Below are positions 17,205 to 22,932 of a DNA stretch of 64,000 bases, piece after piece (within the stretch, counting starts at the first letter, position 1; every line of letters begins with the position of its first letter). The translations under genes and the position numbers were made by a program. The notes under the pieces are model-generated. The model saw only the letters and a list, made by a program, of their open reading frames with translations. It was not told the DNA's origin and made no database searches. Source of the DNA: Marinoscillum furvescens DSM 4134 (lineage in GTDB: Bacteria > Bacteroidota > Bacteroidia > Cytophagales > Cyclobacteriaceae); assembly GCF_003386095.1 (NCBI RefSeq), contig NZ_QREG01000009.1:62001-126000 (forward strand). Direction: 5' to 3'.

Positions 17205-18680
17205 GTGTTGAAAAGTCTTCGGGTCATATTCATTTTTTGTTTGCTGCTGGGGAGTGGTGCGTACCTACAAACGTCTGCGCAGCTTATCACCGATTCGGAC
17301 AGCAAACTGAAAACCAGCAAGCAAAAAGACCAGAAAGGTGGCTTTTTCTTCAACCTTTTTAAAGGTAAAAACCGCTCTGCAAGTGGTCGGCAGCCACAGT
17401 ATCAGGCTTCATCTCCACGCTCCGCATCAGGATCACCGTTTGCTTCTTTCAACAAACGCAAAAGCGTACAGCCCCGTACTAGCAACCGACAAAACCTCTT
17501 TAAAGACTACCGATCACGTGGAGCCATGAGCAGCAGTGGCAGCATAGCGGCGCTATTCAAAGATCGCAGGTCCGTTGCTCCGCGGTATTCGTCTGGTTCG
17601 CCCTTCACCAAAAAAGACAAGTTTGTTTCTCCGCGCTACTCGGCAGGAGACCCCTTTCGCCAGTCTTTTCTTGCGCGACTATTTGGTACTGGCCAGCCAG
17701 CACCTCGATTTTCTCCAGGATCACCTTTCTCTAGCAAGGACATGCGTGTGGCTCCACGCCTGAGTGGTGGCAAGCCTTTCACCAAAAAAGATAAAATGGT
17801 GTCTCCTCGGCTTTCGGCGGGATCACCATTCCAGCCTACTTTTTGGGACAAGCTGTTTGACCGTGGCCCAAGTCCTCGCTATTCGGCAGGGATGCCATTC
17901 GGCAAAAAAGACAAAATGGTAAGCCCAAGGCTTTCGGCGGGCTCCCCATTTACCAACAAAGACATTAAAGTCACACCAAGGCTTTCGTCGGGAAGTCCTT
18001 TTACCAAGAAAGACAAGACAGTGAGTCCAAGGCTCTCAGCAGGAAGCCCGTTTACCAAAAAGGATAAAACAGTAAGCCCCAGATTGTCGGCCGGAAGTCC
18101 TTTTACGAAGAAAGACAAAAATGTAGCGCCCCGCTACTCTGCGGGCATGCCGTTCTCCAAAAAAGACAAGCGAGTGGCTCCACGCCTCTCTCCAAGCTCG
18201 CCATACGCAGACCAAAACTGGAGCTGGATAAAACCTCGCTACTCTACGAACGAAAATCGTTTTGAGGTAAACGAGCGGTTAAAGAAGCAAACCCGCACGT
18301 ATAATTTCTTTGTCTCCAAGTACAAAGGGGAAACCAAAACCTACCGAGAGTGGTATAAAGAGGCATTTAACCTGGCCATGACCCGCGGACAAGGAAACTT
18401 TCAGGCTACCAAACTGCCACGCTACGACCCGCTGCCCAACCTGGACCGAATGGATTATAGAGGTGACTTTAAGCAGAAGTGGATACGCAAAAACGCTATG
18501 CATCCAAGCGTAGCTCACAAAAAAGCCAAGCAAGACAGTGAACTCATGCGGGACGGCCTGCGCAAATGGAACATCTTCTGGACGCGCCTCAACAGGAACA
18601 AAGAACAACCCGACGCTGTTACAGATAAAATTTCGAAACCAAAGTTTGATAAAAAAGAAGCAGACATCTGGAATGAGTAA
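17205..18680 (+). CDS. Secreted basic protein built of 17-residue PR-S-G-PF-KKDK repeats
   Basis: A 491-residue protein not assigned to any family I know. A signal peptide (about 1-25, LLLGSGAYLQTSAQ) leads into a Lys/Arg-rich region. Residues 123-340 are about twelve copies of a unit close to VSPRLSAGSPFTKKDKT. Two copies carry inserts with hydrophobic segments (RQSFLARLFGTGQ and QPTFWDKLFDRG). Degenerate units precede the array (SPRSASGSPFASFNKRKS). The last 140 residues are non-repetitive and basic, with TYREWYKEAFNLAM and many Trp and Tyr. The start is GTG 17205 (or TTG 17208). The frame overlaps ytxJ by 8 bases. It is presumably exported past the inner membrane and could bind a polyanion or cell-wall component, but this is inference. 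Confidence 0.8.
   Translation: MLKSLRVIFIFCLLLGSGAYLQTSAQLITDSDSKLKTSKQKDQKGGFFFNLFKGKNRSASGRQPQYQASSPRSASGSPFASFNKRKSVQPRTSNRQNLFKDYRSRGAMSSSGSIAALFKDRRSVAPRYSSGSPFTKKDKFVSPRYSAGDPFRQSFLARLFGTGQPAPRFSPGSPFSSKDMRVAPRLSGGKPFTKKDKMVSPRLSAGSPFQPTFWDKLFDRGPSPRYSAGMPFGKKDKMVSPRLSAGSPFTNKDIKVTPRLSSGSPFTKKDKTVSPRLSAGSPFTKKDKTVSPRLSAGSPFTKKDKNVAPRYSAGMPFSKKDKRVAPRLSPSSPYADQNWSWIKPRYSTNENRFEVNERLKKQTRTYNFFVSKYKGETKTYREWYKEAFNLAMTRGQGNFQATKLPRYDPLPNLDRMDYRGDFKQKWIRKNAMHPSVAHKKAKQDSELMRDGLRKWNIFWTRLNRNKEQPDAVTDKISKPKFDKKEADIWNE
17571..18224 (+). repeat. Tandem 51-bp coding repeats
   Basis: Approximately twelve copies of a 51-bp unit encode the 17-residue repeat of the surrounding gene. The copies near 17930-18120 are closest to each other; the outer ones are diverged or interrupted. 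Conserved residues are Pro-Arg-(Leu/Tyr)-Ser-x-Gly-x-Pro-Phe followed by Lys-Lys-Asp-Lys. Codon differences among copies with the same amino acids indicate selection on the protein rather than very recent duplication. Confidence 0.9.
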
Positions 18681-19886: not shown

Positions 19887-20774
19887 ATGATAGAACTACC
19901 CACTATTTCTCAGGATAAAGCCAAAAAAGTAAAAAAACCGGATTGGCTACGTGTGAAACTCCCCGTAGGGAAGGAATATGCGCAGGTGCGCAAAATCGTG
20001 GACGAAAATAAGCTCCACACGATCTGTGAAAGTGGCAACTGCCCCAATATGGGTGAGTGCTGGGGAGCTGGTACGGCCACTTTTATGATCCTGGGCAATG
20101 TGTGTACACGAAGCTGCACCTTCTGCGCAGTGGCTACTGGTCGTCCGCCAGAATACGATGAAGCAGAGCCCCAGCGAGTGGCCGAAGCAATCGCTACCAT
20201 GGGAGTAAAACACGCTGTAATTACCTCAGTAAACCGGGACGAACTGAAAGACCGTGGTGCTGAAGTATGGTACCAAACCGTGAAAAAAGTAAAAGAACTG
20301 AGCCCTGAGACGACCATAGAAACGCTCATACCTGACGTAAAAGGCAACTGGGACGCACTCTACCGAATGATAGAGCCGGGTCAAGAGGTAGTCTCGCACA
20401 ATATAGAAACCGTAGAGCGTCTCTACAGACGCGTGCGCCCTCAGGCCAAATACCCGCGCAGCCTGGAGCAAATCAAGCTGACCAAAGAAGCTGGCAAACG
20501 CACCAAGTCTGGAATCATGCTCGGCCTGGGCGAAACTCCTGATGAAGTACACAAAGCCATGGATGATGCCGTAGCGCATGGGCTAGACATCCTTACACTA
20601 GGACAATACTTGCAGCCTACCAAAATGCACATCGAAGTGGCCGAGTTTATCCATCCGGACCAGTTTGATGCATACCGAGAAGAGGGCCTCAAGCGTGGAC
20701 TAAAATACGTGGAATCTGGTCCGTTAGTACGCTCATCTTACCATGCAGAGCGCCACGTTAACGTGCCAATTTAA
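19887..20774 (+). CDS. lipA: Lipoyl synthase
   Basis: LipA inserts two sulfur atoms into protein-bound octanoyl groups, making the lipoyl cofactor of 2-oxoacid dehydrogenases. The 295-residue sequence has both cluster motifs: the auxiliary 4Fe-4S cluster cysteines Cys47, Cys52 and Cys58 ([12 protein letters not shown]) and the radical-SAM cysteines Cys73, Cys77 and Cys80 (CTRSCTFC). The C-terminal RSSY motif, whose Ser ligates the auxiliary cluster, is present (LVRSSYHAE). It is close to the E1 dehydrogenase gene, whose E2 partner needs lipoate, but is a separate transcription unit ended by a strong terminator. Confidence 0.97.
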
Positions 20775-20800
20775 AAGCACTACTATTAATGAAATTTGAA

Positions 20801-20837
20801 AAAGGTGACTGAACAGCGAGTTCAGTCACCTTTTTTT
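20801..20837 (+). terminator. Rho-independent terminator of lipA
   Basis: A perfect 14-bp stem (AAAGGTGACTGAAC / GTTCAGTCACCTTT) with a 5-base loop (agcga) is followed by a run of T, 27 bases after the lipA stop. It is the clearest intrinsic terminator in the window. Confidence 0.93.
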
Positions 20838-20864
20838 GTTTCTGCGCTTCTTGAGTGGCAGGAT

Positions 20865-20897
20865 AAACCCTGGAGGTTTTGGAAACCTCCTGGGTTT
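20865..20897. repeat. Palindromic intergenic repeat (GGAGGTTT type)
   Basis: Two 15-base arms, AAACCCTGGAGGTTT and AAACCTCCTGGGTTT, pair with one mismatch around a 3-base loop (tgg). Repeats of this kind, a palindrome of CCTnGGAGGTTT, are scattered through many Cytophagales genomes. There is no T-run, so it is not obviously a second terminator. Confidence 0.75.
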
Positions 20898-20955
20898 CTG
20901 GCTGATGCTATGTGACGTTAAAACACGGCAATGTTTGATGTCCCTTCAATCACGC

Positions 20956-21035
20956 AGGTTTTGTCAGTTCGAGCCCGCCTTCGGCGAAGCAGACTTGGCG
21001 GGCGGCTAGCCTCGAAAACTAAGACAAAACTTGAA
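20956..21035. repeat. Nested inverted repeat (REP/MITE-like)
   Basis: Outer arms GTTTTGTCAGTTCGAG and CTCGAAAACTAAGACAAAAC pair imperfectly; inside them GCCCGCC pairs with GGCGGGC, and CTTCGGCGAAG can form a further small hairpin. The three levels of symmetry could fold into a long cruciform or RNA hairpin. It contains no gene and resembles non-autonomous palindromic elements of Bacteroidota. Confidence 0.6.
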
Positions 21036-21055
21036 ACAGTGAGCCGGGGGACCTA

Positions 21056-21080
21056 TCCTTCGACAAGCTCAGGATGACCC
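21056..21080. repeat. CTTCGACAAGCTCAGGATGAC-type interspersed element
   Basis: The word CCTTCGACAAGCTCAGGATG is a very common intergenic sequence in Bacteroidota, often part of a larger palindromic unit. A related partial copy (ctactcaggatgacccg) follows at 21121. It is a passive repeat as far as known. Confidence 0.6.
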
Positions 21081-21158
21081 CCAGCTCCATGCCGACGGCA
21101 GGTAAACAGGGTGACCCGACCTACTCAGGATGACCCGAACCTCGGGCAGTATGATTTG

Positions 21159-21315
21159 TCCTGCGTGAACTTTATTGTTCCTGCGCCACTTTCAGGCTTT
21201 CCTGCGAGATCTTGGTCCCTTCCTGCGAAATAATCTTCTGCCCTGCGAGGATTTATAATTCTCCTGCGGAATTTTATGCTGTCCTGCGCTACATTACTGT
21301 TCCCTGCGGCGCAGG
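21159..21315. repeat. Array of eight CCTGCG hexamers at 20-21 bp spacing
   Basis: The heptamer (T/C)CCTGCG occurs at 21159, 21179, 21200, 21221, 21241, 21262, 21282 and 21302, that is with intervals of 20, 21, 21, 20, 21, 20 and 20 bases. The 13-14 bases between copies are unrelated to each other and AT-rich. The last copy is joined to its inverted form, making the palindrome CCTGCGGCGCAGG (21303-21315). The spacing is close to two turns of B-DNA, so all copies face the same side of the helix. The alternating 20/21 spacing rules out a fixed codon phase. Possible roles: a multi-site binding array, or a structured RNA. I know of no described element with this layout. Confidence 0.85.
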
Positions 21316-21458
21316 AAGGAATAAAACGCTAGTCCAACAGCCTCATTAGGACTTCTCGGAAGGACAAGTATTGTTTTGTAAAAGGTCTCCCGGGTTGGAA
21401 TACTTTTTCCGGACAGCCAGCGATTATTAGAACTTACCAAGTCCGCAAACGCTGCAAC

Positions 21459-22865
21459 TTAAATGATTTCCTTATCAAGTTTATCAAGTGCATTCTTGCT
21501 GACCACATATGCATAAATACTGTTTGGAACGATCAACAAATCATCATAATCCTCGAATTTTGTTTTGCTTGTGATCACACCTTTCGGCAGGTTGTTTTTC
21601 AACATAAACTTTTTCAGCTTTCCTGCTTTTGGATTATCTGACCACTTCACTTCTACTGCCCAGCGAACCTCCTGAAAATTATTGCTGACCTGAATTAAAT
21701 CTACTTCACCCTCATCTTTTCCAACCTTCCAATTGGCATACCTCAAGAATTCGTGTTCTCTATGAAGGTATTGCGCATATACCGCAGTTTCAACTAAATG
21801 AGGAAACCTTTCATCCGAATCAGCAACCCTCCCAAAAAGTCCCGTGAATAGACTGGGATTGGTAAGGTAAACCTTGAATTGGGTTATGTTCTTAAATCGT
21901 TTCGCTGACAAATCGACTCTATGCAATACCTTGACCAGAAAAGCTGCCTCTAAGTACTTGATGTACTTTTTGATGGTTTTATTGTCCGTTTTGGTCTCTT
22001 GAGATACCTTTTTATAATCTAGTATTTCTCCCGTTCGGTAAGACAAGACATTGAAAAACTGCTGAAGCTCCAGTGTGTTTTCAATGCCAAAAAGTCCCGG
22101 TAGGTCCTTCATGATTACCTTATCAGTGATATCCTTTTGTATGACCCGCTCCGGGTTCTTTACCTTATCAGAATTAAGAGCTATTTCCGGAAAACCGCCA
22201 AAATTTATGTAATCAACAAAGTGGTTATTGAACACTTCGATATTTGAACACTGAAAGAATCGTCTCGGTCCTGCAAAATCAACCTCCGTCTCCGTGAGCA
22301 AGTTGTCGTATCCGTTTAAATCGACGTATTCGGCAAATGTTAGCGGCGGTAAAAAGTAATCGGTAAACCTGCCTGCGCCGCTCTCAATACTTTTCATCCG
22401 AAGTGCCGCCGCTGCACTTCCACTTGCGATAAACTTCGTTTTTCGGTTCCTATCGACTAAAGACTTCAAATGAATTTCCCAATCCTTCAGGTACTGGATT
22501 TCATCAAAAAAAATATAGGCTCCTTCTAAAGAAACCTCATTAATTGATCTTCCATCATTGACCAGATCTTCCAGGGCGAGGTTTGTGTAGATAGGTGTAT
22601 CTAAACTGAAATAAAATATCCGTTTGGGGTCAACACCCGAATCAATTAAATCCTGGATGGCCTGATACATGATGACGGTCTTGCCAATCCTCCTCGGCCC
22701 CATAAGCACAACCGCCCGGTGGGGGAACTTCTGAGACACAAGCTCATAGAACCCGTCATAATACCTTCGCTTGCTGAACTCATCGTAAAAAGGAATCTTA
22801 CGATCCTGCCACCAGGTATTGTCATCTACTATCCGACCTAGCAGTATATTTTTATCAAAAACCAT
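21459..22865 (-). CDS. AAA ATPase with DUF4143 C-terminal domain
   Basis: A protein of 468 residues if started at the ATG 22865 (MVFDKNILLGRIVDD); an upstream ATG at 22919 would read through the operator repeats. The N-terminal AAA_14-type ATPase has Walker A GPRRIGKT and Walker B AYIFFDEIQYL, followed by an ASGSAAAA sensor region. The C-terminal DUF4143 part ends with a GEVDLIQ ... WAVEVKWSD pattern that resembles a PD-(D/E)XK nuclease core. Such ATPases are widespread and often strain-variable; their function is not established. The gene is monocistronic. Two copies of a dyad-symmetric repeat lie directly upstream and probably control it. Confidence 0.85.
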   Translation of the reverse strand: MVFDKNILLGRIVDDNTWWQDRKIPFYDEFSKRRYYDGFYELVSQKFPHRAVVLMGPRRIGKTVIMYQAIQDLIDSGVDPKRIFYFSLDTPIYTNLALEDLVNDGRSINEVSLEGAYIFFDEIQYLKDWEIHLKSLVDRNRKTKFIASGSAAAALRMKSIESGAGRFTDYFLPPLTFAEYVDLNGYDNLLTETEVDFAGPRRFFQCSNIEVFNNHFVDYINFGGFPEIALNSDKVKNPERVIQKDITDKVIMKDLPGLFGIENTLELQQFFNVLSYRTGEILDYKKVSQETKTDNKTIKKYIKYLEAAFLVKVLHRVDLSAKRFKNITQFKVYLTNPSLFTGLFGRVADSDERFPHLVETAVYAQYLHREHEFLRYANWKVGKDEGEVDLIQVSNNFQEVRWAVEVKWSDNPKAGKLKKFMLKNNLPKGVITSKTKFEDYDDLLIVPNSIYAYVVSKNALDKLDKEII

Positions 22866-22869
22866 ATTC

Positions 22870-22932
22870 AATTTAAGGACGATTATCCCAAAATTAACAA
22901 TTACTGAATTTAAGGACAACCATCCCAGAATT
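22870..22932 (-). promoter_or_regulatory. Doubled dyad operator upstream of the ATPase gene
   Basis: Two 26-bp sequences at 22870-22895 and 22907-22932 share 22 of 26 bases and repeat with a period of 37 bp. Each has internal dyad symmetry of the form AATT(T)nnGGA-n6-TCCnn(A)AATT. The nearer copy begins 5 bp from the ATG. This is the layout of a two-site repressor operator and suggests autoregulation or control by a dimeric DNA-binding protein. No dedicated regulator gene is adjacent. Confidence 0.6.

Follow-up and report, generated by a model that had tools for sequence, protein, structure and literature searches.

What is an array of eight short, identical DNA words, set 20 or 21 bp apart next to a gene to which it has no evident relation, doing in a chromosome? 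Within the window, i.e. the whole stretch of 64,000 nucleotides that was analysed, an earlier note had described eight plus-strand copies of (T/C)CCTGCG at 21159, 21179, 21200, 21221, 21241, 21262, 21282 and 21302, and we recovered all of them, together with the steps of 20, 21, 21, 20, 21, 20 and 20 bp (mean 20.4 bp) and the palindrome CCTGCGGCGCAGG that terminates the array (Table 1). The canonical orientation of the array is the minus strand, on which the core reads CGCAGG/GCAGGA. Its remarkable feature is the spacing and not the heptamer frequency, as the pattern CCTGCG-N13..16-CCTGCG-N13..16-CCTGCG has 6 matches in the window and 0 in 100 dinucleotide shuffles, while the isolated heptamer is not enriched (16 found vs 13.2 expected). 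Tandem Repeats Finder did not report the array.

As the earlier note had supposed, nothing obvious marks the array as a coding repeat: there is no ORF of at least 60 aa between 20774 and 21459, and of the six frames over the array two are open across it or nearly so, and four have inner stops. The gaps had been called AT-rich and unrelated; the former is correct (67% A+T vs 53% in the window), the latter not wholly so, since a fitted profile shows shared A-rich and purine positions. On the minus strand, this profile places a run rich in A some 6-8 bp ahead of the following core in arrays of the window type, and purines directly behind the core. CRISPR arrays consist of direct repeats of roughly 20-50 nt with spacers of similar length, and a conserved core of 5-7 nt with gaps of 13-15 nt does not fulfil this repeat-size criterion; among the neighbours in 95 related loci described below, no gene family occurs in more than 5.

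Table 1. Features of the window around the core array
Feature	Position	Strand	Remarks
Core array of eight	21159..21308	-	exact match of all cores; architecture like the array on contig C13 of the same genome
Dyad CCTGCG-G-CGCAGG	21303..21315	.	inverted core abutting the array
AAA_14/DUF4143 ATPase	21459..22919	-	Pfam PF13173 + PF13635; 3' end faces the dyad
Dispersed repeats	20854-21138		GGAGGTTT/AAACCTCC palindrome and CTTCGACAAGCTCAGGATGACCC-type stretch
51-bp tandem repeat	17903-18120		encodes PRLSAGSPFTKKDK-type repeat protein

The AAA_14/DUF4143 ATPase is a neighbour that has not been shown to be a component of the array, and both sit between lipA and an FtsX-like permease. The dispersed repeats have many copies in the own genome, e.g. 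on contigs C10, C13, C15, C30, C32 and C45. When the window is compared with five other genomes of its genus, the match ends at lipA, apart from part of the FtsX-like gene that is matched in G003; in G005, lipA and the start of the FtsX-like gene are no more than about 150 bp apart. No DUF4143 match and at most two 6-mers at 20/21 bp were found at the lipA loci of these five relatives (2.2-3.7 kb examined). As array and ATPase are missing beside lipA in all five, the segment of repeats, array and ATPase is, judging from these comparisons, lineage-specific, whether it was gained in this lineage or lost in the relatives.

Where, then, does such an array have a recognizable partner? The triple pattern occurs at four sites in the own genome (G000), namely in the window (contig C9) and on C13, C5 and C3. 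The C13 array begins directly 3' of the stop codon of P0001, a gene of 233 aa, and has eight CGCAGG units and the same 13-bp dyad form as the window. The two arrays are identical in their core and agree in their layout, with one inverted core at the dyad followed by eight cores. The 13-bp dyad form (middle base C or G) follows the gene stop at loci L020 and L014/L041, where the dyad is the gene-proximal end of the array. A second P0001 homologue, 80% identical, lies on C22 and is followed by an array with a CCATGG-type core. C13 and C22 are the only contigs of this genome with P0001 homologues, and no such gene was found in the window or elsewhere on C9.

The C5 array is an orphan, the left half of which switches from CCTGCG to CCCGGG cores with the phase kept. 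Orphan arrays without a partner gene that could be found exist also in G005, which suggests that some arrays are relics. All eight cores of the window array are intact, unlike those of the C5 and G005 orphans, and this argues for a recent origin or for continued use. The window array is an orphan with the core of the C13 array, and it therefore most likely either serves the C13 protein in trans, an action that we infer, or is a recent relic of a lost pair. The C3 site is a 21-bp repeat that is open on both strands (L009:2007-2513) and by eye resembles an array on C4 (L168). Both are open on both strands and give heptads such as FRLNAGIHPVNAETSRLN, and as the C4 repeat sits upstream of a gene of the PQLLE type (see below), ORFs with heptads of this kind may simply be arrays misread as coding sequence.

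We refer to the P0001 homologues as tailed genes, because the members with 3' arrays end in a short, basic C-terminal tail of the pattern G-Y-x-S-x-Y-x. Of 148 genomes of the family, 10 have a tailed gene, and a named genome collection contributed 75 loci, from Marivirga, Reichenbachiella, Aquimarina, Draconibacterium, Sunxiuqinia, Marinilabilia and others, as well as from metagenome bins named KSB1, Aminicenantes, Neomarinimicrobiota, and Gamma- and Deltaproteobacteria. The bin names may be wrong, as a "Rickettsiales" bin contains loci that were placed in the window's own genus. In a sample of 395 genomes of the phylum, only G000 itself has a tailed gene at E <= 1e-10. GCAGGA triples were found in 18 of these genomes and a reversed control pattern in 6; outside G000, most triple matches among those listed look by eye like tandem or coding repeats, and G044 was set aside for its near-identical tandem units.

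The arrays at the homologues share step and layout, but the core of 5-7 nt is a different one at each locus. In a strict count, which required at least four exact 6-mers at 20/21 bp, 46 of 84 loci were positive within 600 bp 3' of the tailed gene, compared to 0 of 58 regions 1.2-1.8 kb downstream, 4 of 84 within 600 bp 5' (two of them from Aminicenantes) and 0 of 61 regions at 1.2-1.8 kb upstream. This recount had dropped eight duplicate, broken or truncated loci, most of them previously positive, and 84 of the remaining 87 had a full-length region. A first count, with one 6-mer at least four times at 19-22 bp, had given 62/95 downstream, 9/95 upstream, 0/95 inside the gene and 3/95 for the best of ten shuffles; its 95 loci counted one locus twice (L014 = L041) and included some broken genes. 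The arrays are thus of a widespread short-motif kind that adjoins the genes of one family of helical proteins. The 38 loci that failed the strict test include many from Aquimarina, where GTGCGG-like units downstream can be seen by eye, and also degenerate arrays. Three Aminicenantes loci (L092, L101, L109), all among the nine upstream positives of the first count, have arrays of 6, 6 and 8 copies upstream and none downstream; their cores are of the kind of CTATGGAAA, GGTGGAAA and GGTGGGCA. There is no recurrent operon partner, as the largest neighbour family (by eye a tyrosine-recombinase-like gene) occurs in only 5 of 95 loci. With tblastn, P0001 had no match in 72,556 plasmid records, and homologues were found neither in phage records (tblastn) nor in a scan of viral contigs.

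The link to a gene family extends beyond the tailed genes. At E <= 0.1, 47 of the 53 proteins in the tailed alignment match the NCBIfam family PQLLE (NF052641), the best of them at 2.1e-7, but P0001 with 30.4 bits and the L041 protein with 17.7 bits, the two that were scored in detail, stay below the cut-off of 80. PQLLE is thus a distant relative, with the tailed proteins so scored lying outside the family as curated. A PQLLE profile search gave matches at E <= 1e-5 in 10 of the 395 phylum genomes (6 over the cut-off) and returned 23 loci, 10 of them over the cut-off, which were oriented by the profile match. Here the arrays are on the other side of the gene: 12 of 21 loci have at least four exact 6-mers at 20/21 bp within 700 bp upstream (6/10 over the cut-off, 6/11 below), compared to 2/21 at 700-1400 bp upstream and 0/22 and 0/21 downstream, and 9 of 21 fail this test. 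Where the profile match is only partial, this upstream stretch may contain the beginning of the gene. In the clearest case (G000:C35), eleven AGCTAC cores with steps of 20 and 21 lie 54-258 bp before the matched start. The own genome has six PQLLE-family or related sites (C35:33060-33692, C32:946-1572, C19, C4, C20 and C1), with 11, 4, 6 and 6 upstream 20/21-bp units at the first four and none at C20 and C1. A use of PQLLE loci as an array-free control had to be rejected: on the 3' side alone only 1/23 reached four units, but 16/23 did so when whole loci were regarded. The G-Y-x-S-x-Y tail is missing by eye from those ends of PQLLE-type proteins that were inspected, and a tail code can therefore not rule the whole superfamily.

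The spacing is regular. The window array and 59 chains from 47 tailed-gene loci make up a set of 60 chains without overlap, the 385 spacings of which are distributed as 19:2, 20:93, 21:279, 22:9 and 23:2; 372 of them are 20 or 21 bp, and the mean is 20.78 bp, or 10.39 bp per turn if two helical turns are assumed. The chain finder accepted only steps of 18-23 bp, whereas a lag profile of exact 6-mers, which had no such limit, has its maxima at 20/21 (201 and 510) and 41/42 (306 and 390), with 75 at lag 40 and otherwise at most 56 over lags 8-60. In the 21 chains with at least two steps of each length, 20 and 21 alternate more often than in shuffled chains (100 vs 73.4 +/- 5.3, p 1e-4), and an expansion of 41-bp double units could be a partial source of this alternation. 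In several arrays (e.g. L030, L034, L071, L081, L096), the core is inverted around a central palindrome and thus forms two array halves. Spacing, alternation and inverted halves would suit a protein that reads double-stranded DNA from one side. According to the earlier note, a spacing conserved in no relative would have spoken against a functional array, but the 20/21-bp step recurs in dozens of loci; what could not be seen from the window alone is that the hexamer is not the same at all loci and accompanies an adjacent gene, the tail of which changes along with it.

A core-anchored profile gives A at -8 (65%), A-rich positions -7 and -6, and A/G right after the core, but this profile is partly self-made, because each set was fitted in its offset and its orientation. 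Some RNA hairpins that could plausibly be drawn by eye within the spacers (e.g. GAACTTTATTGTTC) were rejected, as no covariation beyond column shuffles was detected (712 Watson-Crick pairs vs 703.8 +/- 10.6 shuffled, z 0.77; 1.02 with G-U pairs). By eye, CATGG units give way to CCCAGA units within the L037 array, but we do not claim layered arrays as a general feature, since an automatic search detected a second core, rich in AT, at just one of 47 loci vs 0 of 235 shuffles. The array at L220 (G004:C103) mixes, again by eye, GCAGGA-like and CATGG-like units; its protein is 62% identical to that of L028, with the tails KSRYWASK and KSAHWARK, respectively, and this array is possibly in transition.

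What kind of protein is encoded next to these arrays? For the alignment of 53 tailed members an all-helical structure is modelled with a mean pLDDT of 90.7 and a pTM of 0.67. The charges are split: over 85 proteins, the net charge per 100 residues comes to +12.2 in the last 35 residues and to -5.0 in the remainder, the former being basic in 81/85 and the latter acidic in 81/85. At E <= 0.1, one or another of the 53 members matched a total of 20 Pfam families, with a best E of 0.003, a PDB sequence search gave no match at E <= 1, Foldseek none at E <= 1e-3 in PDB or BFVD, and the PADLOC models of anti-phage defence proteins at E <= 0.01 only a match of 1/53 members to GajB (7.8e-4). The best VIA-align hit, the S23/IVS four-helix bundle (2rld; Z 8.9, rmsd 2.7 over 92 residues), is in a range that is uninformative for helical bundles.

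The tail is the part of the protein that changes with the core, and this is most clean in two near-identical contigs of one bin (G003) that part at the tail. The proteins of L041 and L042 are identical at 227 of 229 aligned residues before the tails diverge; L041 ends with KSAYFRNR and has the core GCAGGA, L042 ends with KSMYHSK and has the core CCGGGA. Until the tail codons are reached, the contigs agree at 99.88% over 24,826 bp, and there is no match beyond. They could represent two strains' versions of a single locus or else a long duplication; contamination of the bin is estimated at 5%. Within another genome (G002), L026 and L033 share 218 of 230 residues, and the tail GYGSSYFRH goes with CCCAGA in the former, GYYSAYNRR with CCGGGA in the latter. 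On its own contig C13, the same genome contains a 241-bp copy that comprises the L033 tail and array at 90.9% identity and lacks the gene body, and on its C15 (L037) a tail-only piece with CATGG and CCCAGA units. Both G002 sites stand as tail-only copies, whereas two further candidates for silent tail-only cassettes (G558:C7, G559:C1) were rejected, as they are broken genes with the body alongside.

Among 19 non-overlapping closest pairs, the 4 with the same core all have the same residue after S-x-Y (4/4), whereas 14 of the 15 with different cores differ in this residue (p 0.0013); in the subset with a body identity of at least 0.70 (12 pairs, counted by hand), the numbers are 4/4 and 7/8. 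In addition, A directly precedes GG in 12 of 15 readable loci with F/Y/W/L after S-x-Y and in 0 of 11 others (p 5e-5), but this rule was found post hoc on 26 of 39 rows without correction for kinship, and by eye L021, L060, L077/L098 and L096, which the register filter dropped, look like counterexamples. L014, L070 and L072 had been removed beforehand as a duplicate or because a simple repeat had been taken for the core, and six further loci were left out as they have no readable tail under the pattern of the script. Over all pairs the tail-core correlation is modest (partial r 0.159, p 0.013; residue only, p 0.03), and it is not significant among distant pairs alone (p 0.15). As far as aligned genes and arrays can demonstrate it, tail and core covary in the 3' subfamily.

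We regard it as probable that the array is the DNA address of a chromosomal protein of a superfamily that includes PQLLE, with the proteins assembling on one face of the DNA and, in the 3' subfamily, the tail reading the core; that the protein binds, does so cooperatively, and can act in trans is inferred. Copies of the protein would dock on each core, and their helical bodies would touch the neighbouring copies, which would be aligned on one face of the DNA as the cores recur every two helical turns. The assembly would grow outward from the central dyad where there is one. In the subfamily with 3' arrays, the basic C-terminal tail would recognize the core, and through a joint change of tail and core every pair would have a specificity of its own. 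The window array would then be a second site at which the C13 protein acts in trans, or what has recently remained of a lost pair.

What alternatives exist? The earlier note had left the choice between a cooperative protein-binding array and a repeat RNA, and we favour the former because of the spacing, the dyads, the arrays on either side of genes, and the lack of hairpin covariation, although there are no binding data. If the array were in an untranslated part of a transcript, the protein could bind its own message at the repeated cores, in single-stranded form, for autoregulation or in an RNP, and the usual position of the tailed-subfamily arrays just past the stop codon would agree with this, as would the terminator-like hairpin that is seen by eye after the array in L014/L041. 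It is nevertheless unlikely, as both core orientations occur within one array around a dyad, the spacers do not covary, and the mean step of 20.78 bp comes with 20/21 alternation. The PQLLE-type arrays make it slightly less likely still, because they lie 5' of their genes, in several cases at a distance of 200-560 bp from the matched start. Nothing in Rfam reached the gathering score over positions 20700-21500 of the window.

The arrays might also be by-products of mobile DNA, either decayed tandem repeats or REP-type elements that are moved by RAYT proteins or insertion sequences. A RAYT-like gene lies 3' of the arrays in L020 and L042, REP-like repeats and sequence resembling insertion sequence ends flank several arrays by eye, and the segment in the window is missing beside lipA in the five relatives. 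We doubt this explanation strongly, since the one RAYT-like family that comes within 400 bp of gene or array does so in only 4 of 95 loci and no other neighbour is more frequent than stated above, and since a passive repeat predicts neither cores that remain exact while the spacers diverge nor cores that change jointly with the tail of the adjacent protein. A neutral minisatellite, in which slippage would have multiplied units of 20/21 bp and the hexamer would be the remnant of a common ancestral unit, is very improbable: some arrays (L027, L066, L078, L167) indeed consist of near-identical units, but many share only the core and faint flanking positions, and the two-turn spacing, the dyad architecture and the linkage to one protein superfamily would not be explained.

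An address that is read by a protein is reminiscent of several known systems. The iterons of plasmid replication initiators are direct repeats about two helical turns apart, next to the gene whose product binds them; in par centromeres (e.g. parC of R1), two sets of repeats surround a centre, again beside the gene of the binding protein. The two-turn phasing of the present arrays is iteron-like, but unlike in iterons or parC only the core of 5-7 nt is kept, this core varies with the locus and is tied to a C-terminal tail, no neighbour family accompanies the genes in more than the 5 of 95 loci, and P0001 has no match in the plasmid records; a replication initiator family is not among the 20 Pfam families. 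RAYT/REP pairs combine a protein with small palindromic or repeated elements of matching specificity near its gene. The tailed protein P0001 differs from these by having no RAYT match; the RAYT-like gene beside the C13 gene is a separate one (P0002), with 52.4 bits for NF047646 and thus below the 80-bit cut-off. RAYT-like genes are located directly behind the arrays at G000:C13 (L011:2306-2956) and G003:C93 (downstream of L042). With TIGR-Tas (PMC12045711), as far as the accessible part of that source describes it, the arrays share that a short interspaced array is next to a single protein gene. In contrast to TIGR-Tas, there is no Nop domain among the 20 Pfam families, and the locus-specific information resides in the short core, with no guide-RNA structure found in the spacers, a difference that is again limited to what this part of the source contains. 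A description of this array type was not found in the literature, in a search without most subscription papers and bioRxiv preprints. As core and spacers both vary between loci, repeat finders and family databases miss the pattern.

The joint change of tail and core in one branch of the superfamily suggests a new type of DNA address that can be switched. A more far-reaching and only tentative possibility is a self-contained system that switches specificity, in which tail and array are swapped as a cassette, the pairs form private nucleoprotein filaments without cross-talk, orphans are used in trans, and PQLLE works from the other side of the gene. That the L041 and L042 contigs part at the tail, and that a tail-array copy without body exists in G002, are the reasons to consider such a cassette exchange. 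The output of the system is unknown, and a nucleoprotein scaffold, e.g. a centromere- or condensation-like one, or a selfish gene-array pair can only be guessed. If the proposed reading is right, a few C-terminal residues specify a short DNA word, and the swap has been run several times in nature, which would amount to a compact, readable protein-DNA code for which near-isogenic natural pairs exist. PQLLE, a family for which no function is given, would gain a DNA partner, and the arrays would be a new class of chromosomal nucleoprotein array that may serve chromosome organisation, selfish maintenance or regulation.
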